Assembly: GCA_007618135.1 (NCBI GenBank)
Contig: PHFX01000019.1
Location: 1-36,385, forward strand
Source: Candidatus Brocadia sp. WS118
Lineage (GTDB): Bacteria > Planctomycetota > Brocadiia > Brocadiales > Brocadiaceae
Length of the DNA: 36,385 nt
Direction of reading: 5' to 3'
Under the pieces are notes generated by a model. The model was not told where the DNA came from. It saw only the letters and a program-made list of their open reading frames with translations, and made no database searches. Position 1 is the first letter of the stretch. Every line of letters begins with the position of its first letter. The translations under genes and the position numbers were made by a program. Positions 9,361 to 21,408 of the stretch are shown here, one piece after another.

Positions 9361-11052
9361 TTATTTCTTTGCCTTCTGTTTTACCTTCTGTTTTGTCTTC
9401 TGCTTTGCTTTTGCGCCGGGTTTTGAAGAGACCTTTGGCTTTGCTTTTACCTCAATTTTGCCTTTGGGTTTTTCTTTCCCCATGAGGATCTGTTCAGCTA
9501 TTTCGCTATCGGCATCCATGATGTATCTTAAGCCGGTTACTTCTGCCGCTTCACGAGTCAGGGTGACGACATCATCTCGTGTTAAATACTCCAATGCAAA
9601 TTTTCTTGAACCGCACATTAACTGCCGTAAACCCTGAGATAACCGCTGATAATAAGAATAAACCCCGACTGCCCCAGGAGGCACTTCACGTCCGTTGGAA
9701 CCGAACAACCGTTTTACTTTAGATGCCAAAACGAAAATTTCATCTATCGTCCTGCCGTAGGGTTCTATCGTTTTGTCAACTGAGTTCTTATTGACCTGAT
9801 CGGCAACTAACTTCCCAACATGTGCTGCACACAGCGGAGAACGCGCCATTCCAACAGCCTTGACATAAGGAGCGCCAAGCGCAAAAGCCTTAAAGATATC
9901 ATCCTCAAACGCAAATCCGCCGGCAAGGATAACGTCAGGCACATACTGACCCTTTGAAGCTAATGTGTGGATATAATTGTAGGTAAGGGAAGCAATGTAT
10001 AACGTCGGCACACCCCATTCGTTCATCATATGCCATGGGCTCATACCTGTACCGCCGCCGGCCCCATCTACGGTCAAAACATCAACTCCGGCGATAGAAC
10101 AATAACGGACTGCCCTGGCAAGGTCCGCCGGTCTATAGGCACCCGTCTTCAGAAACACATATTTTGCGCCAGCCTTCCTTAATGCCTCAACCCGTTTCAC
10201 AAATCCTACTTCATTGACCATTCCAACTCTGGAGTGTCTTTCAAATTCCTTAAATGCCTTGCCAAAGACTGAGGCTACATTATTATCATAGGGGTCAGGA
10301 AGTACGATATAACCGCGATCTCGTAATAATCTTGCTTTTTCGAGGGTGTTTATCTTAACCTCTCCGCCAATATCCTTGGCGCCTTGCCCCCATTTCATTT
10401 CTACGGCCTGCACCCCTAATTTGTTCATGCCGTATTCAAGGACACCTAATCTGCTATCTTCCACATTTTCTTGCATGACAATAACGCCGTAACCATCCTT
10501 TTGCCATTCCTGAAAGGTTTTTACCCGGTATTCGATGTCGGGACAGTGGGTTATTTTCCCGTTCTCCAATCTGGTATTGACGTCCATGCCTCCGACATTT
10601 TCACCAATCGTAAGTCCTGTCCCGGAAATTGCGGAACCGATAGCCAATCCATCCCAGTGTGTCTTGGCGACATTTGTTGAACCCAGACCCGGAATCATAA
10701 TCGGCAGTCGTAATTTGATTCCCTTGTCCTTCCCCAGCCTCGTCTCCGTGTTTACATTCTCAAAAATTGCCTTGTCGCTGTCGGCCTCAATCCCCACGGC
10801 GCCAACCGCAGTCCCCATAATATTTAAATGTGAAAAATCCACCGGATATTCTTTATCTGCCCCGGCTGTGATAGTTCCAAAGGGTTGCGGATACAAATTT
10901 TCAGATGCTCGAAATGCAGACCTTCCAATTTCGCATATACCCGGACAATCATCTACACAAACCGAACACATGCCGCTGGCCGGCATCCGGTCATTTGGTG
11001 TCCTATTCTTTGTACGTGTTGCCGCTGACGCGTTTGGTTTTGAAAAAGACAT
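9361..11052 (-). CDS. FMN-binding glutamate synthase domain protein (stand-alone GltB central domain type)
   Basis: The core (about residues 50-490) resembles the FMN/synthase domain of glutamate synthase: LPIMIPGLGSTNVAKTHWDG, EMKWGQGAKDIGGE, VDGAGGGTGMSPWHMMNEWG and PDVILAGGFAFEDD. There is no amidotransferase domain, so the substrate and partner are uncertain; a Fd- or NADPH-coupled role in ammonia assimilation is only possible. Residues 29-40 (CSVCVDDCPGIC) form a CX2CX3CX3C motif that could hold an iron-sulfur cluster. The last 40 residues are a Lys/Pro-rich repeat tail. ATG at 11052 is preferred over the TTG six bases upstream because CAGAAAGGGG lies seven bases ahead of it. The gene is alone and divergent from moxR. 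Confidence 0.85.
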   Translation of the reverse strand: MSFSKPNASAATRTKNRTPNDRMPASGMCSVCVDDCPGICEIGRSAFRASENLYPQPFGTITAGADKEYPVDFSHLNIMGTAVGAVGIEADSDKAIFENVNTETRLGKDKGIKLRLPIMIPGLGSTNVAKTHWDGLAIGSAISGTGLTIGENVGGMDVNTRLENGKITHCPDIEYRVKTFQEWQKDGYGVIVMQENVEDSRLGVLEYGMNKLGVQAVEMKWGQGAKDIGGEVKINTLEKARLLRDRGYIVLPDPYDNNVASVFGKAFKEFERHSRVGMVNEVGFVKRVEALRKAGAKYVFLKTGAYRPADLARAVRYCSIAGVDVLTVDGAGGGTGMSPWHMMNEWGVPTLYIASLTYNYIHTLASKGQYVPDVILAGGFAFEDDIFKAFALGAPYVKAVGMARSPLCAAHVGKLVADQVNKNSVDKTIEPYGRTIDEIFVLASKVKRLFGSNGREVPPGAVGVYSYYQRLSQGLRQLMCGSRKFALEYLTRDDVVTLTREAAEVTGLRYIMDADSEIAEQILMGKEKPKGKIEVKAKPKVSSKPGAKAKQKTKQKVKQKAKK

Positions 11053-11139
11053 TTCCAAACCCCTTTCTGACGAATTATATTTGTCAAACTAAATGATAAT
11101 GAAATATGGTATTCATACACTTGCGATTTAAATTTTGAA

Positions 11140-11168
11140 TATATACACCTTTTTAAATTTACTGTCAA
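11140..11168 (-). promoter_or_regulatory. Sigma-70-type promoter for the glutamate-synthase-domain gene
   Basis: On the minus strand TTGACA (11168-11163) is followed after 17 bases by TATATA (11145-11140). It lies about 90 bases upstream of the start codon at 11052. Confidence 0.55.
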
Positions 11169-11290
11169 TACAATTCTCTCATAGAAATGAGAGTGGATAG
11201 TAAAAACGCATATAAGATGCCAAAGCATGAAATTAGTTTTTCTTTTGCAGAAGATTTCCCCGCCTAATGTTGTATCTTGCTTGAATTACA

Positions 11291-11318
11291 TTGAGTTGTA
11301 GTAATAAAGAATTATAAT
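11291..11318 (+). promoter_or_regulatory. Sigma-70-type promoter for the moxR-bat group
   Basis: TTGAGT (11291-11296) is followed after 16 bases by a perfect TATAAT (11313-11318). This leaves a leader of roughly 150 bases before the moxR start at 11472. The rest of 11053-11471 is AT-rich and divergent-promoter-like, with no gene seen. Confidence 0.5.
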
Positions 11319-11471
11319 TTGTTTGTAAACAAAAAAACTACATTATATAATCCTATCGTAAAAAATAGGTATGTAAAGCAGCATGTTGGCTGAAAAAAAC
11401 CTGTGAAAGAAAAGTCCAAGGAGAATAATTTCGCAGCAATTCGCTGCACCATGATAGGGAGGTAATAAGCT

Positions 11472-12467
11472 GTGAAGACACGGGTAAAAACAGTAATCCA
11501 TGATAAGGAGTCCGTGAAAGAGAAGGTCGAAACCATTAAGAGAGAAGTGGGGAAGGTCATTGTCGGCCAGGAAGAACTGATCGAGGGTATCATTATTGCC
11601 TTGCTCTCAGATGGTCATATTCTCCTGGAGGGTTATCCCGGACTTGGAAAGACCGTTACGGTGAAAACCGTTGCACGGATATTAGATGCAAAATTCCAAA
11701 GGGTGCAATTTACTCCCGATCTTATCCCCGGAGACATTACCGGATTTGAAATGTGGGACCCGGCAACAAGAAAAAGCAGGATACAAAAAGGCCCGGTTTT
11801 TACCAATCTACTCCTTGCCGATGAAATTAACCGAGCACCTGCAAAGGTTCAAAGCGCATTACTTGAGGCGATGCAGGAAAAGCAGGTAACGATCGGGCGG
11901 GAGACCTATCCTCTGGAAAAATTATTTCTCGTGCTGGCGACCCAAAATCCGATTGAGATTTCGGGGACATATCTATTGCCTGAAGCCGAGATAGACCGGT
12001 TTATGTTCAAACTGAAGGTTAATTATCCGGCATACGGAGACGAAAGAGAAATCACTGAGAGGCAAATTCGGGACGAGGAGGCAGAATTAGCGGTTGTTTT
12101 ATCCCCCAGAGAAGTGCTTTCCTTCCGGCATATGATTTCCGAGTGGTTGCCTTTGCGTGAAACGTCGGTCACCATAAAATATATTACCCGATTAGTCAGG
12201 GCAACAAGACCGGAAGAAGGAAATGGTACATTAAAAAATCTGGTGATGTATGGCGCGTCACCCCGTGCATCCATCGCCTTAGCGCGTGCATCCCGTGTGT
12301 ATGCCTTTATTCAGGGAGAAGATATGGTATTGCCAGAGCATATTCACAAGATGGCTTATCCTGTCTTGCGGCACAGAATCATCCTTACCCATGAAGCGGA
12401 ATCTCAGGGCATTGATTCTGACGATATTATTGAAAAAATCCTTCATCAGGTACCCATCGTGGAATAA
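11472..12467 (+). CDS. MoxR-family AAA+ ATPase
   Basis: Walker A GYPGLGKT lies at 54-61. Family signatures follow: RVQFTPDLIPGDITGFEMWD, Walker B LLLADEINRAP, SALLEAMQEKQVT, and LATQNPIEISGTYLLPEAEIDRF as sensor region. The 331-residue length is normal. GTG 11472 is the start, with GGAGGT eight bases upstream. MoxR ATPases act as chaperones for VWA-domain partners. Here the downstream DUF58, BatD-like and BatA-like genes provide such partners, so a membrane-envelope stress or cofactor-insertion role is inferred. Confidence 0.93.
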   Translation: MKTRVKTVIHDKESVKEKVETIKREVGKVIVGQEELIEGIIIALLSDGHILLEGYPGLGKTVTVKTVARILDAKFQRVQFTPDLIPGDITGFEMWDPATRKSRIQKGPVFTNLLLADEINRAPAKVQSALLEAMQEKQVTIGRETYPLEKLFLVLATQNPIEISGTYLLPEAEIDRFMFKLKVNYPAYGDEREITERQIRDEEAELAVVLSPREVLSFRHMISEWLPLRETSVTIKYITRLVRATRPEEGNGTLKNLVMYGASPRASIALARASRVYAFIQGEDMVLPEHIHKMAYPVLRHRIILTHEAESQGIDSDDIIEKILHQVPIVE

Positions 12468-12472
12468 ACCAG

Positions 12473-13327
12473 ATGAAAAAAAGGATACGACTTACTTTGC
12501 AACGATTGATTGAAAACCTCTTTGCAGGAACATTTTCCAGCTACATGAATGCGCTGCATGGTCTGGAATTTGACGAACTCCGGCAATATCAACCAGGAGA
12601 TGATTGTAAAGCCATCGACTGGAAGGCGACGGCAAAGACCGGAAGGCTTCATGTACGCATGAAATTCGTTGATAAACGGGTAACCATCATGTTCGTAATA
12701 GACAAAAGCCGTTCGGAGAAGTTTGGGTCGTTTATCCATACAAAAGAAGAGGTTCAAGCAGCCATTCTCTCTCTCCTTGTCCATGCCGCTTCGGAAGCAG
12801 GTAATGAAATAGGCTTTCTTACCTTTACCGATAGGGTGGAAAACTTCATGCAACCAAAAGCCGGCGAAAAAGAGGCGTTAATCAAGGTAAGAACTATTTT
12901 ATCTGAAACACCTTCGGGCAGTTACACTGATTTCCATGTGGCATTTACCTTTTTGAACGAAAAAATTCTCCAGCCAGCCCTCGTATTTATTTTGTCAGAT
13001 TTTTTAGCGCCTTACAATTACGAGCAATCGATGAAAACACTTTCCTATTTTCATGAGGTAATCCCAGTAATTATTTCAGACAGGATGGAAACAACTTTGC
13101 CTTACGCAAGGGGCTTTCTCACCGTACAAGATATGGAAACCGGCGTCATAAAACCACTGGACATTTCAACAGCGCACGAAAAATTTTTACCTTACATGAT
13201 TTTATTAAGGAAATTGAATATAGATCATATTTCATTATTTACCGATGAAGACGAAGAACTATGGGTAAAAAAAATCTCTGAGTTCTTCGACAGACGCATC
13301 AGGAGAGGAGGGAGGAGGAGGAGATGA
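12473..13327 (+). CDS. DUF58 domain protein
   Basis: The N-terminal half carries the DUF58 signature LEFDELRQYQPGDDCKAIDWKA as GLEFDELRQYQPGDD and IDWKATAKTG. A VWA-like part follows with IMFVIDKSRSEKFG, where the metal site is DKSRS rather than a perfect DxSxS. The start is five bases after moxR and the stop overlaps the next start (ATGA), which supports translational coupling. It has no obvious signal peptide and is expected in the cytoplasm, near the membrane complex. The function within moxR-bat loci is not established. Confidence 0.9.
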   Translation: MKKRIRLTLQRLIENLFAGTFSSYMNALHGLEFDELRQYQPGDDCKAIDWKATAKTGRLHVRMKFVDKRVTIMFVIDKSRSEKFGSFIHTKEEVQAAILSLLVHAASEAGNEIGFLTFTDRVENFMQPKAGEKEALIKVRTILSETPSGSYTDFHVAFTFLNEKILQPALVFILSDFLAPYNYEQSMKTLSYFHEVIPVIISDRMETTLPYARGFLTVQDMETGVIKPLDISTAHEKFLPYMILLRKLNIDHISLFTDEDEELWVKKISEFFDRRIRRGGRRRR

Positions 13328-14721
13328 AATACCTTGGGATCGTTGTATGGATCGGTATTATCAGTGCGGTTTTCCCGGGAAATTGCTTTACCCGTGCATA
13401 TGCACAAGAGCAGCCCCGGATACAAGAAGAAGCAGAGGAGGGAGGCGAATTTGCGCTGGCAGACCAACCGCTTGAAATTTGGACATTTCTTGACGATTAC
13501 CGGCTAATTACCGGCAAGACGCTGCATCTAACGGTTCAGGTTATGTGGAAGCTGGGGGTAACAGTTAATCTGGAAGGGATGGAGAAGATCGATCTTTCGC
13601 CATTTACGATAGAAGGCGTAACCATCGGGGAACGCCAAATCTTTGATAATGAACATGATTATGCCGTCGTCACCTACGCGCTTTCTTTGCCTTCTGACAT
13701 CAAGGCAGGTATCTATTCAATTCCCTCTTTTTCTCTTTCCTACAGGAATGAAGTCGATAAGAGTGAAGGTACGGCAACTTCTGCACCCGTCGCCGTTAAA
13801 AAGGTGGCAATCCTTCTCGAAGGCAAGGTGGATAAGGACGTTATCACCATTGGCGATCACATTACTTATACCCTTACCATACGGCATGAAAAAAATGTAA
13901 CCATATTGTGGGAAAGCATGGAAAAACTGAATTTTTCCCCATTTGAAGTCTTACAAAGGGATATTAAAAAAACTACGGAAAGGAATGTTGAGAAGGTATC
14001 GATAACCTACACGCTTTCATTATATGAATTGGGAGGGAAAAAAAAGGCTCAGGAAATCCCTGAGCTGACGGTTTTATATTACGGAGGGACACCTTCACAA
14101 TCCAATACGACAAAAGCCGAAAATTTGCTTATTGAAACACAAGAAGTCAAGACTACTTCTATTCCCATTATTTTAAACAGCCTTCTCAAGGCGGTGGACG
14201 TGCCATTAGAAGGAATCAAAGGCCCGATGTTCTATTCGGGGAAACATGCCTTTTTCCATGGATATTTGCCTATGGGCATAGGCGTTATGTTATTTGTCTT
14301 TTTAGGGGCAACGGCGTTGCGTTCTATGATGGGAAGGTTATCATCCGCGTCGCCGAAACCTGTAACCGAAACTCCTCATATTGCCCTGGAGAGGTTGAAA
14401 AATACCGTGGCATTATTTCAGTATACCGATGATGAAGCCATCAACCGGAATACAATTCACAACATCAACAAGGCGCTGCGGACGTATGCGGGCATGCTTA
14501 TCGGCATTTCAAATGAACAGGCACAATCTGCCACGACATCGAGGTTCTTGCAATATGATACACAAAAACACCTCCCGGAAGAAATTTCAATGATCATCCA
14601 AACCGTATTGAAACAGCTCGATGAGCTGATCTTTGGAAGACATATGGGAAAAGAGGCCGTAGACAGAATGCTGGAGGGCGTAAAAGAAATTATCGAAAAG
14701 ACCGGCCTTAAGATTTCTTAA
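13324..14721 (+). CDS. BatD-like exported, membrane-anchored protein
   Basis: The 465-residue protein has an N-terminal signal sequence ending near AYA-Q (residue 28), two repeated beta-rich segments resembling each other (KVTVNLEGMEKIDLSPFTIEG-type and ESMEKLNFSPFEVLQ), one transmembrane helix at about 316-336 (GIGVMLFVFLGATAL) and a helical cytoplasmic tail of about 125 residues. The topology and position match BatD of moxR-bat operons, although identity cannot be measured here. The ATG overlaps the DUF58 stop and has a very strong purine-rich GGAGGAGGAGG leader. The next gene, batA-like, lies 376 bases on, behind a terminator-like hairpin. Confidence 0.75.
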   Translation: MKYLGIVVWIGIISAVFPGNCFTRAYAQEQPRIQEEAEEGGEFALADQPLEIWTFLDDYRLITGKTLHLTVQVMWKLGVTVNLEGMEKIDLSPFTIEGVTIGERQIFDNEHDYAVVTYALSLPSDIKAGIYSIPSFSLSYRNEVDKSEGTATSAPVAVKKVAILLEGKVDKDVITIGDHITYTLTIRHEKNVTILWESMEKLNFSPFEVLQRDIKKTTERNVEKVSITYTLSLYELGGKKKAQEIPELTVLYYGGTPSQSNTTKAENLLIETQEVKTTSIPIILNSLLKAVDVPLEGIKGPMFYSGKHAFFHGYLPMGIGVMLFVFLGATALRSMMGRLSSASPKPVTETPHIALERLKNTVALFQYTDDEAINRNTIHNINKALRTYAGMLIGISNEQAQSATTSRFLQYDTQKHLPEEISMIIQTVLKQLDELIFGRHMGKEAVDRMLEGVKEIIEKTGLKIS

Positions 14722-14728
14722 ATTAGGC

Positions 14729-14763
14729 TGGGTTTTAAAAGATAAAAACCCAACGACTTTTTT
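14729..14763 (+). terminator. Rho-independent terminator after the BatD-like gene
   Basis: TGGGTTTT (14729-14736) pairs with AAAACCCA (14745-14752) over an 8-base loop, and a T-run (14758-14763) follows closely. The stem is AT-rich and modest in strength, so it may only attenuate expression of the downstream gene. Confidence 0.5.
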
Positions 14764-14766
14764 ACC

Positions 14767-14931
14767 CACCCCTAAATCCCCTCCCAAGAGGGGCCTTCTC
14801 AAATTCCCCTCTTGAGAGGGGCAAGGGGTGTGTAGGGCAATAACAAAAAGATTGAAGTTCCTATGCATTAAATTAGGTCTTTGGCTACTTCCCCCCCTGT
14901 TTCCCCCCGTAAACGGGGGGATTATGGGGGG
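14767..14931. repeat. Cluster of G/C-rich inverted repeats between batD-like and batA-like genes
   Basis: The first element (14767-14830) pairs CACCCCTAAATCCCCTC-type sequence with its inverse ending GGGGCAAGGGGTG. The second (14891-14931) has nested arms CCCCCCGT/ACGGGGGG and outer C/G runs. Direct repeats of GAARTTCCT followed by TTAATTAGGT-like sequence flank the second element (14852-14877 and 14936-14961), as if left by insertion. A further hairpin (GGGCGACCA/TGGTCGCTC) lies near 14998. No gene lies in 14722-15097. Confidence 0.65.
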
Positions 14932-15097
14932 TAATTGAAATTCCTGAACATTTAATTAGGTTGCCATCGGCAGCGACTTTAAGCGCCCTTCATAGTAGGG
15001 CGACCAGACTGGTCGCTCTACATGAGCCGGTTTGAAATTCCATACTTTAAAGAAGTAACAGAAATTTTGAAATTCCAAAACACCCAGGTACCGATAC

Positions 15098-16117
15098 ATG
15101 ACCCTTGCAAATCCGTTACTCCTTCTGCTTCTCATCCCTTTTGCTTTCCTATATTACTTTTGGCGGGAGAAGAAGTTTCTCGGGTATTCCAGCCTCTCTT
15201 ACGTTAAAGAACCCGTGGGGTTTAAGAGAACAGTAACCCGTCTCAATAAACCCGTTTTTTTTGGCGCCGTATTTTTTGCAATTGTTGCCATCACACACCC
15301 CCAAACCAGGTATTATCAGGAGGAAACAGCCCTTCAAGGACGCGAAATAGCTCTTTCCATAGATACCTCTTTTAGCATGACGGGAACGGCTATCGAAACG
15401 ATAAAAAAAATTGTTGGGGATTTTATAAAAAAACGCTCGAATGATCTCGTAAGTATTACCATCTTTGGTACCGATGCAGCCCTCATTGTTGTACCTACGA
15501 TGGAAACTCAGCTGCTGAAGAAATCACTGGAGCGTGTGCAGGCGTCTCAGGTGGGCTATCAGACGTCCATTGGAGAAGGCCTTTTTACTTCTCTTGCGGC
15601 GCTGTTTGAAAAAGAGATGGGAAAGCAATTTACCATAAAGGAATTGAGAAATAGCATCAATAAAGAATATCTTGCCGATTATGCCATTTCTTTTGTCAAG
15701 GAGATGGAAAAGAGGCAGGTACTCAAAAACAAGCTCATTGTTCTCTTTACCGATGGGATATATAATATTGGCATTTCGCCCACCCGGCCCCTGCGCTTAC
15801 TGAAGAGAATGGGAATAAAGGCATATGTCGTGGCAGTCAAGGCATCGGATGTTACGGGCGTAGACCCTGAAGTTGCAGCCCAGCACATTGAGGAATTAAA
15901 AGAGGCGGTCGAGTCAACCGGAGGAAGGTATTATCACGCAGAGAATTTTGAAGAGGTTGCCAGTTTTTACGACGAGATCGACGCGAGGGAAAAAGACAAA
16001 ATTGTCATAGAAACCGTGGTAAAGAGAAAAGACCTGTATCTTTATCCCCTCCTTGCAAGCATCGTGCTTCTTTTCACTGCTATTTTTATGGAACATGTCT
16101 GGATACGTATACCATAA
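15098..16117 (+). CDS. BatA/BatB-like membrane VWA protein
   Basis: Two N-terminal hydrophobic helices (about 4-21 and 52-66) precede a von Willebrand A domain with an intact metal site D89-T-S91-F-S93 and a later FTDGIYN segment; a C-terminal helix (about 315-335) returns to the membrane. This layout and the 339-residue length are those of BatA/BatB. The VWA loop would face the cytoplasm or periplasm and bind a partner through a divalent metal. MoxR, DUF58 and BatD-like proteins upstream make up the rest of the group. The upstream spacer with hairpins may uncouple its expression from the first three genes. Confidence 0.85.
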   Translation: MTLANPLLLLLLIPFAFLYYFWREKKFLGYSSLSYVKEPVGFKRTVTRLNKPVFFGAVFFAIVAITHPQTRYYQEETALQGREIALSIDTSFSMTGTAIETIKKIVGDFIKKRSNDLVSITIFGTDAALIVVPTMETQLLKKSLERVQASQVGYQTSIGEGLFTSLAALFEKEMGKQFTIKELRNSINKEYLADYAISFVKEMEKRQVLKNKLIVLFTDGIYNIGISPTRPLRLLKRMGIKAYVVAVKASDVTGVDPEVAAQHIEELKEAVESTGGRYYHAENFEEVASFYDEIDAREKDKIVIETVVKRKDLYLYPLLASIVLLFTAIFMEHVWIRIP

Positions 16118-16204
16118 CGCAGCAAAGCCGCAACCAAATCCCCCTTGTCGCACTGGGACAAGCGTCCCCGCTTGTCATGTGATGTCAACCGGGACGGCTG
16201 TGAC

Positions 16205-17608
16205 CTACCTCAGCGTCCTTGTGTGATGACTTCTCTTGACTCCTTCCAGTAATTGCCTCCTTTTCAAGAGCATAGACATGGCCTTTGCGCTCCGTTCTGG
16301 AGAGGGGTAGACGGGAAACTCGTGGTCTTCAAAGAGTTGTTTGATCTTCAGGGTAAACGCCCCGCCCACCGTGCATATAACGGCAGGCTTTCCTGCTCGT
16401 GTCATCGTATCGGCAATAAGCCCAACCACCTTTTCCGTCATGCCTTGTGGCGCCATAAGCGGTATGATTATGGCCGCATCGTATTCATCGCTTTCTACCA
16501 TGCACGCATTCAGTGCTGTGTGATAGTCCTGGTCGCATGCGCTTCCGGTTAAATCAACGGGATTGCTTACAACATAGAATGCAGATAATTTGTTGCGGAG
16601 CTTCTCCTTTAACTGCGGAGAGGGGAGCGGGACATCGAGTCCGTTCTCTGAACAGTGGTCAGCCACAATGACGCCAAAGCCGCCCCCATTGGTGACAATA
16701 AGGATGCGATTCCCTTTGGGAGGATTTTGCATAGACAGTGCCTTTACGCCATCGATAAATTCTTCCAGACCGTTTGCCTCAATAATACCCGCTTTCAGGA
16801 ATGCGGCCTTGTATATTGCGTAGTTTCCTGCAATAGCGCCCGTGTGTGACCTGGCTGCGGCAATTCCAGCGGCGCCCTTTCCAACTTTTAAAGCCACAAT
16901 AGGTTTTTTCTCCGAACAGGATTTAGCTGCTTCAATAAACCTTCTTCCGTGATCAACCGACTCCATATAAATAGCAATTACCCTGGTATGGACATCATCC
17001 CGCAAAAATGGCAAGAGGATAGACTCCCCCACGTCGAGCCTGTTTCCGTAGTTTACCATTTTTGCTATGCCCAATCCTTCCTGGGATGCGAGGTCCAGCA
17101 AGGCAATAGCGAAGGCACCGCTTTGTGATAGGATTGATAGTGACCCCTTTTTCGGGTAGCTCACCCGTTCCCATGACAGAAACGAGGTAGTGAAATTGGT
17201 ATAATTATCCAGTACGCCCAAGCAGTTAGGCCCAAGTATTCTGATATCATTTTCACGTGCAACGTACTTGATCCGCTCTTCCATTGCAATGCCTTCCTCG
17301 CCCATTTCCCGAAACCCGGCGCTGATAATGATGGCATGGCGAATCTGCTTCCGTGCCTGTTGCTGCACTACCTCCAATACCAGTGGGGCGGGGATGGCTA
17401 TGACGGTTAACGCCACATTGTCCGTGATATCCAGGATTGAAGAAAAACATGTAAGGCCAAAGATGGTCTTGTATTTTGGATTTACCGGATATATCCTGCC
17501 TTGGAAATCCATATCGATGAGGTTTTTCAGGATAATGCCCGGCAAGCTGCCCGGTTTTTCCGTGGCGCCTACGATAGCAACTGATGGGGGATTAAAAAAA
17601 GTTTCCAT
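16205..17608 (-). CDS. acdA: ADP-forming acetyl/acyl-CoA synthetase, alpha subunit
   Basis: The 467-residue protein has an N-terminal CoA-binding Rossmann domain (SVAIVGATEKPGSLPG, YPVNPKY) and succinyl-CoA-synthetase-like ligase domains (ILGPNCLGVLD, SILSQSGAFAIALLD, YGNRLDVGE). The phosphorylatable histidine is H255 in ARSHTGAIAGN. This enzyme class makes ATP from acyl-CoA, ADP and phosphate. It is the alpha part only; the ATP-grasp beta subunit is not in the window. The ATG at 17608 is preferred over an upstream one because AAGGA lies nine bases ahead and homology begins there. The gene is alone on its strand. Confidence 0.87.
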   Translation of the reverse strand: METFFNPPSVAIVGATEKPGSLPGIILKNLIDMDFQGRIYPVNPKYKTIFGLTCFSSILDITDNVALTVIAIPAPLVLEVVQQQARKQIRHAIIISAGFREMGEEGIAMEERIKYVARENDIRILGPNCLGVLDNYTNFTTSFLSWERVSYPKKGSLSILSQSGAFAIALLDLASQEGLGIAKMVNYGNRLDVGESILLPFLRDDVHTRVIAIYMESVDHGRRFIEAAKSCSEKKPIVALKVGKGAAGIAAARSHTGAIAGNYAIYKAAFLKAGIIEANGLEEFIDGVKALSMQNPPKGNRILIVTNGGGFGVIVADHCSENGLDVPLPSPQLKEKLRNKLSAFYVVSNPVDLTGSACDQDYHTALNACMVESDEYDAAIIIPLMAPQGMTEKVVGLIADTMTRAGKPAVICTVGGAFTLKIKQLFEDHEFPVYPSPERSAKAMSMLLKRRQLLEGVKRSHHTRTLR

Positions 17609-17649
17609 ACCCGTGTGTCCTTCCGTTTTATTCGTAACTATAGGAAACA

Positions 17650-17772
17650 CAGATTTCTCAGATTACGCAGATAAACAAAAATCTAAAATGCCTGTTTATG
17701 GGTCATCTCCCCTTGCGGGAGAGGGTGAGAGGTGTCAGCCTTTAAGGCTATCTGTGCAATCTGTGAAATCTG
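17650..17772. repeat. Inverted repeat CAGATTTC-CAGATT-CAGAT
   Basis: A 23-base segment at 17650-17672 (CAGATTTCTCAGATTACGC...) has a nearly identical inverted copy at 17750-17772; the two differ at three or four positions. The spacer contains CCCCTTGCGGGAGAGGG. Together they could form a long hairpin. Confidence 0.6.
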
Positions 17773-18070
17773 CGGTTTCAGCCATTTTTGTCTCTTTCAA
17801 AAATCAGCAACTACCACTAATAACAGGAACATAGGGGGTAAAGCAAGGATAAAATTTTGAGCAGGACAATCATCTGCACCTTTAAATAAAGGTGTGTCAT
17901 GGCACACTTTTTCTTCTTTACTGCAAAAGAACTGGTGATGGTTATATCTACTCTCTCATATTCATAAGTTATTAGAATTCAACGGGTAATAGAGTAGTTA
18001 TAAAAATTCTTTCTTTTATATCATGTTCCAGCATTTATTTTGTTAATTCTTCATATCAGATACCTTTGAA

Positions 18071-18176
18071 AAAGACAAACCCTGAGTAATCAGGGGACGC
18101 AAAGTAACAGGATCTTTCGTAGGGGCGTATTGAATACGCCCTGCATCTGATTAAAAGATAGCCTTACTGCCGAAGA
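18071..18176 (+). promoter_or_regulatory. Cyclic-di-GMP-I (GEMM) riboswitch-like aptamer without a downstream gene
   Basis: The GEMM core is visible: ACAAAC, then stem CCCTGA/TCAGGG closed by a GNRA loop GTAA (18080-18095), then GGACGCAAAG (18095-18104). A second stem GATCTTT (18111-18117) pairs with AAAGAT (18054+100 to 18159), followed by AGCC and TGCCGAAG, as in many GEMM-I RNAs. A perfect-type hairpin GGGCGTATT/AATACGCCC (18122-18141) is inserted in the second stem loop. The closing P1 stem is not clear. No plus-strand gene follows; the next gene, arcC, is on the other strand. Confidence 0.58.
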
Positions 18177-18211
18177 TGTTTTAATGAACATTTTGTAGTA
18201 AGGCTTTTTTG
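18160..18211 (+). terminator. Intrinsic terminator overlapping the riboswitch 3' half
   Basis: AGCCTTACT (18160-18168) pairs perfectly with AGTAAGGCT (18197-18205) and is followed directly by a T-run. An inner ATGTT/AACAT stem adds stability. Its left arm is also the 3' strand of the putative aptamer, so aptamer folding and terminator folding would exclude each other; this is the usual expression platform of an ON switch. Confidence 0.75.
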
Positions 18212-18337
18212 TTTTTAAGCCCGAGAGAGCAGGGTCTTGCAATCACATAACCAGCCTAACATGGTGCTCAACCGGAGCGCGGCCATAAGTCGGTTTTGTA
18301 TTTCAAGTCTCCGTAGCCACGCCAGGCGTTCCCAACG

Positions 18338-19285
18338 TTAATCCTTGATAATCATCGTGCCAGTCCGGCCGTCCAGCGCCTCTTTGACCTTGTCGATGGA
18401 CGTGATGATCGCCCGTTCTCCATCCCAGTCTAAAAAATTCATGGCGGCTTGAATCTTTGGACCCATGCTTCCCGGCGGGAAGTGCCCTTCCTGAAAATAT
18501 TTTTGGGTTTCCATAACGGTTAATCTGTGAAGCGCCTGCTCGTTTGATTGTTTAAAGTTTAAGAAGGCATATTCAACGCCGGTAAGCATCACAAGACAAT
18601 GCGCATGAATATCTCTTGCCAAGACGGCGGAAGCGAGGTCCTTGTCAATCACCACGTCAACCCCCTCCAGGTCTCCGTTTTCTTTCATAATTACCGGGAT
18701 GCCGCCACCACCTGCCGCAATAACAATGTCACCTGCTTTTAGCAGGGTCTTTACCGCCCGTTCCTCCACGATTTTCAGCGGGTTTGGTGAAGCAACGACC
18801 CGGCGGTACCCCCTGTGGCTATCTTCGGCAATATGCCAGCCTTTTTCCCGGTGGAAGCGGCCCGCTTCTTCCCTGGTAAAAAAAGGTCCGATGGGTTTGG
18901 TTGGATTTGAAAAGGCATTGTCATCTTTATCAACAATGACCTGCGTCAGCACGGTAACGACGCACCGGTCGATTCCCTCTTGTCGGAGACGATTCGTCAA
19001 CGATTGCTGGATCATGTACCCAATGGCGCCTTCGGTATCTGCCACACAGACGCCCAGGGAAAGCTCCGGTATCTGATTCCGGCATGCCTCTACCATAAGT
19101 AACAGATTCCCCACCTGTGGCCCATTTCCATGGGTGATGACTACCTCGAAGCCCGTCTTTAAGCAGTAGACGATCCCGTCCAGACTCTTTCGGACATTTT
19201 CGAATTGTTCCGCAATAGTACCCTGCTGACCCGTTCCGATAAGGGCATTTCCTCCTAAAGCAATAACAATAACTTTTTTCTTCAT
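18338..19285 (-). CDS. arcC: Carbamate kinase
   Basis: Carbamate kinase moves phosphate between carbamoyl phosphate and ADP, giving ATP, CO2 and ammonia in catabolism. Family blocks are complete: VIALGGNALI, VVITHGNGPQVGNLL, GAIGYMIQQ, VASPNPLKIVE, AAGGGGIPV, VIDKDLASAVLA and FPPGSMGPKIQAAM. The 315 residues match the usual length. The start overlaps the upstream P-loop gene by four bases (ATGA), with AAGG six bases ahead, so the two are translationally coupled. No arginine deiminase or ornithine carbamoyltransferase gene is nearby, so the source of carbamoyl phosphate is unknown. Confidence 0.95.
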   Translation of the reverse strand: MKKKVIVIALGGNALIGTGQQGTIAEQFENVRKSLDGIVYCLKTGFEVVITHGNGPQVGNLLLMVEACRNQIPELSLGVCVADTEGAIGYMIQQSLTNRLRQEGIDRCVVTVLTQVIVDKDDNAFSNPTKPIGPFFTREEAGRFHREKGWHIAEDSHRGYRRVVASPNPLKIVEERAVKTLLKAGDIVIAAGGGGIPVIMKENGDLEGVDVVIDKDLASAVLARDIHAHCLVMLTGVEYAFLNFKQSNEQALHRLTVMETQKYFQEGHFPPGSMGPKIQAAMNFLDWDGERAIITSIDKVKEALDGRTGTMIIKD

Positions 19286-20601
19286 CGCAACCTTGACTCA
19301 AGAAGTTCCTGAAGTGTCGGTGTGCCTATTTCCCGGAAATGATATCTGACCCGGTCAGTAGGTTTATCTATGGAAATGAGTTTTCTCAGATCAACAGGGG
19401 TACCAATAATTACCACATCGCATGGGGTTCGATGTATCGTTTCCCGCAACTCCTCCATCTGCGAAAGGCCATAGCCCATGGCCGGTAAAAGATTGCCGAT
19501 GTGCGGATACTTCACAAAAACTTCAGCAATTGAGCCTACCGCATAGGGTCTGGGATCGACAATCTCTCCTGCGCCATACTGTTTTGCAGCAAGGACTCCG
19601 GCACCAAAGGCCATTCCACCGTGTGTCAGGGTTGGTCCATCTTCGATAACCAGGGTACGCTTCCCCTTTATAAGCTCAGGTTTTTCAATTATTACGGGCA
19701 GTGCGGCATCTACCACGACCGCTTTTGGATTCGACTGCTTTATGTGCTCTTTAAGAAGGCGTATGTTTTCTGGTTTTGCGGTATCTTCTTTCGTAATGAC
19801 AACAATATCTGCCATGAGAAGATTGGTTTCACCGGGATAATACGTAAGCTCGTGTCCCGACCGGTGCGGGTCAACAAGGGTAATATGAACATCGGGCACA
19901 TAGAAGGGGGTGTCATTATTGCCGCCATCCCATACGATAATATCGGCCTCCTTCTCAGCCTCCGCCAGGATCGCTGTGTAATCCACACCGGCATACACGA
20001 TGGTATGCTGTTCTATATGCGGTTCATATTCCTCAACCTCTTCGATGGTGCAGTCATGCCTCTGAAAATCCTCATACGAAGCGAACCGCTGCAAGCGCTG
20101 CCGGGAAAGATCACCATAGGGCATGGGGTGCCGTATAACAACGACCCTTTTCCCCATTCCTTTGATAATCTCACAGACCCTGCGTGAAACGGGACTCTTG
20201 CCACTGCCGGTTCGTACAGCACAAACAGCGACAACGGGCTTGCTGCTCTTTATCATCGTCTGCTTCGCACCCAGAAGGATGAATTGCGCGCCTGATGCGT
20301 TTACAAGGCTGGCCTTGTGCATAACGTACTCATGCGATACATCGCTGTAAGAAAATACTACCTCATCAATGGTATGTAATTTTATGAGTGATGTCAGCTT
20401 TTGTTCGGGTTCGATGGGGATTCCTTGTGGGTAGAGTTTACCTGCCAGAGAAGGGGGATAGCGTCTTCCTTCAATATTTGGTATCTGTGCCGCCGTAAAG
20501 GCAATGACTTCGTATTCGGGATTGTCACGAAAAAGGAGATTGAAATTGTGAAAATCCCGCCCGGCTGCCCCCATAATAAGAACTTTTTTTCTGTTTGCCA
20601 T
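19282..20601 (-). CDS. Cyclic 2,3-diphosphoglycerate synthetase-like P-loop protein (predicted GTPase)
   Basis: The 439-residue protein begins with a Rossmann-like segment (KKVLIMGAAGRDFHNFN), followed by a P-loop AVRTGSGKS at 128-136 and the conserved blocks IRHPMPYGDL, VWDGGNNDTPF, LMADIVVITK and VIEDGPTLTHGGM. This pattern belongs to the family named after the Methanothermus enzyme that makes cyclic 2,3-diphosphoglycerate. Bacterial members are often only called predicted GTPases, and their substrate is not known. ATG at 20601 is chosen over an upstream start because AGGAG lies eight bases ahead. It overlaps arcC by four bases, which points to a joint function with carbamate kinase. Confidence 0.82.
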   Translation of the reverse strand: MANRKKVLIMGAAGRDFHNFNLLFRDNPEYEVIAFTAAQIPNIEGRRYPPSLAGKLYPQGIPIEPEQKLTSLIKLHTIDEVVFSYSDVSHEYVMHKASLVNASGAQFILLGAKQTMIKSSKPVVAVCAVRTGSGKSPVSRRVCEIIKGMGKRVVVIRHPMPYGDLSRQRLQRFASYEDFQRHDCTIEEVEEYEPHIEQHTIVYAGVDYTAILAEAEKEADIIVWDGGNNDTPFYVPDVHITLVDPHRSGHELTYYPGETNLLMADIVVITKEDTAKPENIRLLKEHIKQSNPKAVVVDAALPVIIEKPELIKGKRTLVIEDGPTLTHGGMAFGAGVLAAKQYGAGEIVDPRPYAVGSIAEVFVKYPHIGNLLPAMGYGLSQMEELRETIHRTPCDVVIIGTPVDLRKLISIDKPTDRVRYHFREIGTPTLQELLESRLR

Positions 20602-20718
20602 AAAGATTGCTCCTGCCTGACCCGAATACATGATGTCTGGTGGGCGATGTCCACCCTACTGCGATGGCAAGGCACGCCTTGCCACTACAATTTTATAAGA
20701 GGTACTCAGTCATACCGT

Positions 20719-21408
20719 TCATTCATTTTTTTGCAATATGCCTTTCACCGTCTGCCATACCTTTTCCGCAATGAGTTGTTCCGGCAACAATGTGCCATTT
20801 TCTGTGCAATCAATAGTTACCCAATCCTTTTTCCCCTGAGCAATTTCCAGAAATGTTTGTTGCGCATATCGCAAGTGGTTGATGTCCGCCTCATGGATAT
20901 CCTTCTTTCCGCCTGCCAGATAAGCGCGCTGTTCCTTTCTTTCAACGAGATGATACGCGATTTCTGGCGGCACGTATAACAGGATGTTGAGATTTGACCG
21001 TGGAACGGCAAACACCTGATGTTCCAGAGTGTCCAACCATTGGAAAAATTCTTCTTGCCTTGCAGCGTTCCTGATTTTACCACCCTGATGGGCCATATTG
21101 TCGCACACGTACCGGTTCGACACGATAATCTTGCCTTCTCCGAGCCATCTGTTTATCTGTTCCCTGCACTCCCAGCGATCCCCTGCATAGAGAAGCGCTG
21201 CTAAGTATGGGCTTACGGAGTCCGCACTGCCAAATTCACCTTTCAGATATTTCGTGACCATGTCGGCAAAAAAAGTTTTGCCATATTGAGGGAAATCGGT
21301 AATGTCTGCCGGATACCCCTCTTTCAGCAACCGTTGGTACAGGAGTTTTGTCTGTACCGTTTTACCGCTACCGTCAATACCCGTAATGACAATGAGTTTT
21401 CCTTGCAT
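20719..21408 (-). CDS. tmk: Thymidylate kinase-like nucleoside monophosphate kinase
   Basis: The P-loop GIDGSGKT is at 10-17, and the DRY-type motif appears as SNRYVCDNMAHQG. The LID-like region ERKEQRAYLAGGKKDIHE follows, and the 229-residue length fits dTMP kinase. Thymidylate kinase phosphorylates dTMP to dTDP. The N replacing D in the DR(Y/F) motif means that a related substrate is possible. ATG 21408 has GGAG upstream. It precedes the P-loop gene by 117 bases that contain a GGCAAGGCACGCCTTGCC-type hairpin, so cotranscription is likely but not tight. Confidence 0.8.
   Translation of the reverse strand: MQGKLIVITGIDGSGKTVQTKLLYQRLLKEGYPADITDFPQYGKTFFADMVTKYLKGEFGSADSVSPYLAALLYAGDRWECREQINRWLGEGKIIVSNRYVCDNMAHQGGKIRNAARQEEFFQWLDTLEHQVFAVPRSNLNILLYVPPEIAYHLVERKEQRAYLAGGKKDIHEADINHLRYAQQTFLEIAQGKKDWVTIDCTENGTLLPEQLIAEKVWQTVKGILQKNE

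Follow-up and report, generated by a model that had tools for sequence, protein, structure and literature searches.

A c-di-GMP-I riboswitch without a sense gene at a candidate rearrangement junction in Candidatus Brocadia

The window analysed here, a 36,385-nucleotide stretch of Candidatus Brocadia sp. WS118 (contig PHFX01000019.1), carries a c-di-GMP-I (GEMM-I) riboswitch on its plus strand that faces a gene running in the opposite direction. Comparison with related sequences leads us to favour, at a probability of roughly 0.55, a model in which this copy is a leader that was orphaned recently at a rearrangement junction and has stayed close to intact. A rearrangement would have put the arcC block beside the riboswitch and removed the original target gene. 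The copy is ordinary in kind and unusual in position, and the Brocadia riboswitch family to which it belongs deserves more attention.

A cmscan search of the whole window gave a single Rfam match above the curated cut-offs, to RF01051 (c-di-GMP-I) at 18064-18174 (+), with 54 bits against a gathering cut-off of 35 and an E-value of 5e-8 across the whole window. The preliminary description had recognized GEMM-I from a GNRA-capped P2, the core and the 3′ side, and had proposed an Infernal search with the Rfam c-di-GMP-I model; the score bears out the assignment. The span that it gave (18071-18211) misses the first P1 bases, as the model match begins at 18064. The P2 hairpin, CCCUGA-GUAA-UCAGGG (18080-18095, +), is visible both in the sequence and in the RF01051 alignment, and its cap is the GNRA tetraloop GUAA (18086-18089). 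We transferred the residue numbers of the Vc2 aptamer onto the window copy by alignment. The equivalents of G20 (18074), A47 (18101) and C92 (C18170), which are ligand contacts of the Vc2 aptamer (PMC4744006), are all kept, and the conserved interhelical C-G pair between P2 and P3 (PMC4744006) is present as C18098 and G18161. One core residue is changed. G21 is replaced by A (18075), which leaves an A·C mismatch with C18100 in place of the G21-C46 pair; this pair is highly conserved, though not strictly defining. Position 21 is G in 144 of 146 collected copies and A in two. Of 51 highly conserved aptamer positions, the window copy is changed at one; two or more such differences occur in 25 of 129 copies. 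The c-di-GMP-I-GGC variant (RF03167) was rejected, as the match scores 56 bits, short of the 59 that this model requires, and position 47 is A where the variant has G; a cGAMP-type GEMM is unsupported, G20 being retained. The element is thus confirmed as a genuine member of the c-di-GMP-I riboswitch family and is predicted to bind the ligand.

An intrinsic terminator (18161-18204, +) overlaps the aptamer. Its 5′ arm, 18161-18170 (GCCUUACUGC), is the 3′ strand of aptamer P3/P1, as the preliminary description had read it, and pairs with the 3′ arm, 18195-18204, at 10 of 10 positions (one a G-U pair), followed by a U run (UUUUUUGUUUUU, 18205-18216). Such sharing of an aptamer strand with a terminator arm is expected of a cis-acting transcriptional ON riboswitch, and from this anatomy we infer an ON-switch layout. 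The RNA fold has a z-score of -6.6 relative to its own shuffles. Computed folding favours the terminator state by about 21 kcal/mol without ligand, so stabilization of the aptamer by ligand would have to act during transcription, which is the usual ON-switch logic. Binding of c-di-GMP during passage of the polymerase would keep 18161-18170 within the aptamer, the terminator would then be unable to form and transcription would go on; without ligand the terminator would form and the RNA would end near 18216.

The leader upstream of the aptamer (17892-18063, +) is common to gene-bearing copies at 70-76% identity; its relatives (C125:25138 in genome G000, 2823848 and 2834482 in G002, and one on C53 of G008) all bear genes. 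At 18029-18044 (+) the leader alignment reveals a degenerate σ54-like -24/-12 element, CAGCATTTATTTTGTT, which we assign by consensus only. Its -24 dinucleotide (18030-18031) is AG versus GG in all aligned relatives, including the paralogues, a single change that need not abolish the promoter. No σ70-type promoter was found for the window riboswitch. The leader opens with a palindrome, GTGTGTCATGGCACAC (17892-17907), which is kept in the paralogous leaders and is possibly an activator site; in the window and in the homologous leaders a palindrome close to GTGTGnCATGnCACAC lies about 120-140 nt upstream of the σ54-like promoters.

The window copy has many relatives. The source genome, from an anammox bacterium, contains 37 RF01051 matches (36 over the cut-off), and the ten congeners 19-56 each. 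Counts are 1-28 in the remaining genera of the family and mostly 0-5 (at most 11) in other families of the order. Use of c-di-GMP riboswitches by anammox bacteria appears to be genome-wide. We collected 146 copies for comparison, 129 of which share a cassette in which the 3′ strand of the aptamer is GCCUUACUGCCGAA and the terminator a matching GCAGUAAGGC-U; 9-10 of the 10 terminator arm pairs are present in 123 of the 129. TTGACA is found upstream of 68 of the 146 copies, against about 10 in shuffled sequence, and σ54-like TGGC-N7-TTGC sites, mostly 35-65 nt upstream, occur in copies that lack it (14 sites at a score threshold passed by 2.6 in shuffles). RpoN is encoded, and two promoter classes appear to serve these riboswitches. 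σ54-like promoters of the form TGGCAT-N5-TTGCT precede the TTGACA-less copies L051, L255, L168, L244 and L235. Two copies, L263 (G002 2823848) and L277 (G002), carry A at the G20 position, a change tied to altered ligand preference in GEMM-I variants. A tandem c-di-GMP-I pair (L148/L177, G002 2195100-2195293) that lacks the CUUACUGC terminator cassette stands before a secreted-protein-like ORF.

The unusual feature of the window copy lies downstream. There is no plus-strand gene behind it, as had been noted at the outset, and the same-strand downstream gene that a cis-acting transcriptional ON riboswitch should have is missing; just downstream there are only ORFs of at most 35 aa without an evident ribosome-binding site. 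The next gene, an arcC-like amino-acid kinase (carbamate kinase, PF00696; 18338-19285, -), runs towards the riboswitch. Its protein is about 85-89% identical in several Brocadia relatives; the closest named relatives, at about 84-89% identity, come from Candidatus Brocadia and unnamed planctomycetes, which places the window in an anammox planctomycete of this genus. In three genomes, 113 copies had enough DNA behind them for a simple ORF scorer, which placed a same-strand ORF first in 92, and the other apparently gene-less copies of the source genome were found on inspection to precede sense ORFs, some of them long. One of these, at C14:112796, had been a candidate for a second gene-less copy and is followed by a conserved 89-aa sense gene; a degenerate match at C221:118600 stands apart from the exceptions resolved in this way. 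The window copy is the sole clear exception in the source genome.

Both flanks are conserved in the genus, but not side by side. The left block (9361-17650) includes an fdrA-like gene for a CoA-binding/succinyl-CoA-ligase-like protein (16205-17650, -), and the right block (18338-21408) consists of arcC and two upstream genes. The two are adjacent in no relative examined, so that the riboswitch marks a rearrangement junction, with a contig misjoin as the less likely alternative. The gene upstream of fdrA varies among relatives, so the junction is a variable one. Between terminator and arcC, the segment 18216-18337 has no match in the genus, and the slightly longer 18210-18345 matches nothing in ten congeners and is unique within the source genome, hence no long repeat lies at the junction itself. 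Repeat checks on the source genome covered selected stretches; the longest exact repeat common to the window copy and the other compared copies of the genome measures 32 bases and lies inside the aptamer. An attC-like or plasmid origin of 18216-18337 was rejected; there was one weak plasmid match, and a 23-base piece matched no virus. In G001, the riboswitch upstream of fdrA (L301) has the same orientation but differs in leader, promoter and P3 insert, and is not taken as an orthologue. A former target like that at G002 2834482 or at tandem neighbour copies was set aside on weak evidence, the 145-aa protein found there being unmatched in the source genome.

Since the junction was found in no relative, the target gene was probably lost recently. 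G21A and the AG at -24 together suggest early decay, in which the orphaned copy would be losing a core pair and the GG of its σ54-like promoter; the intact terminator and palindrome run counter to decay. As a single conserved position out of 51 is altered and the terminator is intact, deep decay is unlikely and we prefer ‘recently orphaned’. The suggestion in the preliminary description that the element may be a relic therefore holds as far as orphaning at a junction is concerned, the flanks not being adjacent in relatives, but not for an eroded element. A short undetected downstream ORF or RNA is possible.

We consider it unlikely that the contig joins unrelated pieces near the riboswitch and that the true downstream gene is on another contig. 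The assembly is a draft of 299 contigs totalling 5.04 Mb, larger than its congeners (2.9-4.1 Mb), riboswitch cassettes are dispersed repeats and none of the relatives examined has fdrA next to arcC; against such an artefact, the shared exact repeat is short, 18210-18345 is unique and the upstream side of fdrA is variable across relatives anyway. Somewhat less probable again is an antisense-acting riboswitch, in which high c-di-GMP would allow read-through into RNA complementary to the 3′ part of arcC and so lower the amount of ArcC. An intact ON design is aimed at the arcC 3′ end, 163 nt from the end of the aptamer and so within 500 nt, and no riboswitch family is found in antisense orientation more often than that for c-di-GMP (PMC9943018). 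However, the arrangement is absent at arcC of the other Brocadia relatives searched, and in B. carolinensis the riboswitch near arcC points the same way as the gene; with this opposite relative orientation, it was rejected as an orthologue. The lack of a σ70-type promoter match and the weakened -24 of the σ54-like element also count against this reading, and some antisense cases are themselves ascribed to inserted or broken genes (PMC9943018).

A free-standing small RNA made from the terminated transcript, either a merRNA-like store of c-di-GMP or a trans-acting RNA, we regard as improbable. Leader, aptamer and terminator are self-contained, the fold is strong and the Bdellovibrio merRNA is a precedent for a GEMM RNA without a gene (PMC3627812), but the element is not conserved as gene-less, its promoter is weakened, G21A probably lowers affinity and the same genome has dozens of gene-linked copies. 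Control of a short ORF past the terminator (34 aa from TTG or 26 aa from ATG, end 18341) is highly improbable: the frame is open, yet it lacks both an evident ribosome-binding site and a relative elsewhere in the genus. Recent orphaning at a rearrangement junction remains our preferred explanation. Such an orphan would show a route by which rearrangement leaves a riboswitch antisense to an unrelated gene, and is a caution for antisense-riboswitch catalogues.

The apical part of P3 is a palindromic hairpin, GUAGGGGCGUAUUGAAUACGCCCUGC (18119-18144, +). A palindrome of the form GUAGGGGCGUAUUG-CAAUACGCCCC is present at about eight sites in the source genome, three of which are P3 of other riboswitch copies, besides the variant form in the window; a pattern search with up to three mismatches did not match in the window, where the loop is shorter and the end changed. 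The palindrome fills P3 in the same register in several other copies of the source genome and its relatives, similar hairpins occupy P3 in copies of several congeners, and copies outside riboswitches have unrelated flanks. Thus the P3 hairpin alone does not mark a relic. The preliminary description saw a common intergenic hairpin inserted into the second stem; this hairpin is a dispersed palindrome in P3 and is not private to the window copy. We suggest that the P3 tip is a tolerant swap site and that the window insert is a feature of a subfamily, not the cause of orphaning. Further repeats seen in P3 are the GUUUAAAC and UUUCCUGC palindromes. In L043 (C158:18606), L048 (C62:884), L263 and L154 the P3 insert contains a second copy of the aptamer 3′ strand (GAUAACCUUACUGC-like), possibly a decoy or alternative pairing strand. 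L266 and L277 (G002) have P3 inserts of 150-170 nt, apparently a shared intergenic repeat and an extreme case of insertion into the P3 tip.

Sister copies carry a different kind of hairpin in P3. The CsrA SELEX hairpin motif ACNNGGANGU occurs 35 times among 126 distinct P3 inserts, a density of 6.0 per kb versus 0.068 per kb in the compared DNA overall (∼ 90-fold), and the bases on its two sides are complementary more often than under permutation (p 0.002). A GGA hexaloop with at least three closing pairs is found in 9 of 30, 11 of 29 and 13 of 43 distinct inserts of three genomes (∼ 1 in shuffles); as the copies are related, these insert counts are not independent. The hairpins fit the CsrA SELEX consensus RUACARGGAUGU with its AC/GU pairing and hexaloop (PMC7652899), and csrA is present in all 11 genomes of the genus. 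CsrA-type P3-tip hairpins (AC-NNGGAN-GU hexaloop) are seen in L038 (G000 C125:6775-6873), where the P3 hairpin is CUUACAGGGAAGUAAG, in L044 (C267:3946-4081), L061, L062 and others; the window copy has none. We interpret the P3 hairpins of the sister copies as putative CsrA binding sites. A CsrA-type hairpin in this slot would mean that one leader integrates c-di-GMP and CsrA. We speculate, with rather less confidence than for the orphaning, that the Brocadia P3 tip is an exchangeable slot for either a variable-stem CsrA-type hairpin or a dispersed palindrome, and that in the window copy the CsrA site is absent or replaced. A possible built-in CsrA site would connect two global regulators of sessile life in a way that can be tested. 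A literature search of partial coverage returned no paper linking anammox bacteria or CsrA to c-di-GMP riboswitches in this way, and CsrA-type hairpins in c-di-GMP-I P3 appear to be new.

The closest known system is c-di-GMP-I itself (RF01051), with which the window copy shares the core sequence, the P2 GNRA loop, the G20, A47 and C92 equivalents, the P3 receptor region and the overlap with an intrinsic terminator; it differs in the G21A core mismatch, the long P3 with a palindromic repeat and the absence of a sense gene. A CsrA site inside an aptamer, which we propose for the sister copies, has a precedent in the action of CsrA on the moaA Moco riboswitch aptamer (PMC7652899), although that case comes from another riboswitch class and organism, and the window copy is without the CsrA-like hairpin. 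The Bdellovibrio merRNA is likewise a GEMM RNA without a downstream gene, but is a 445 nt, extremely abundant RNA (PMC3627812). Antisense-acting riboswitches, which among c-di-GMP riboswitches number 152 versus 2,554 in sense, include the same geometry, a c-di-GMP riboswitch facing the 3′ end of a convergent gene at less than 500 nt (PMC9943018). The window arrangement differs in that it is not conserved and no link between arcC and c-di-GMP is known. Gene insertion or breakage is the proposed origin of some antisense cases (PMC9943018).
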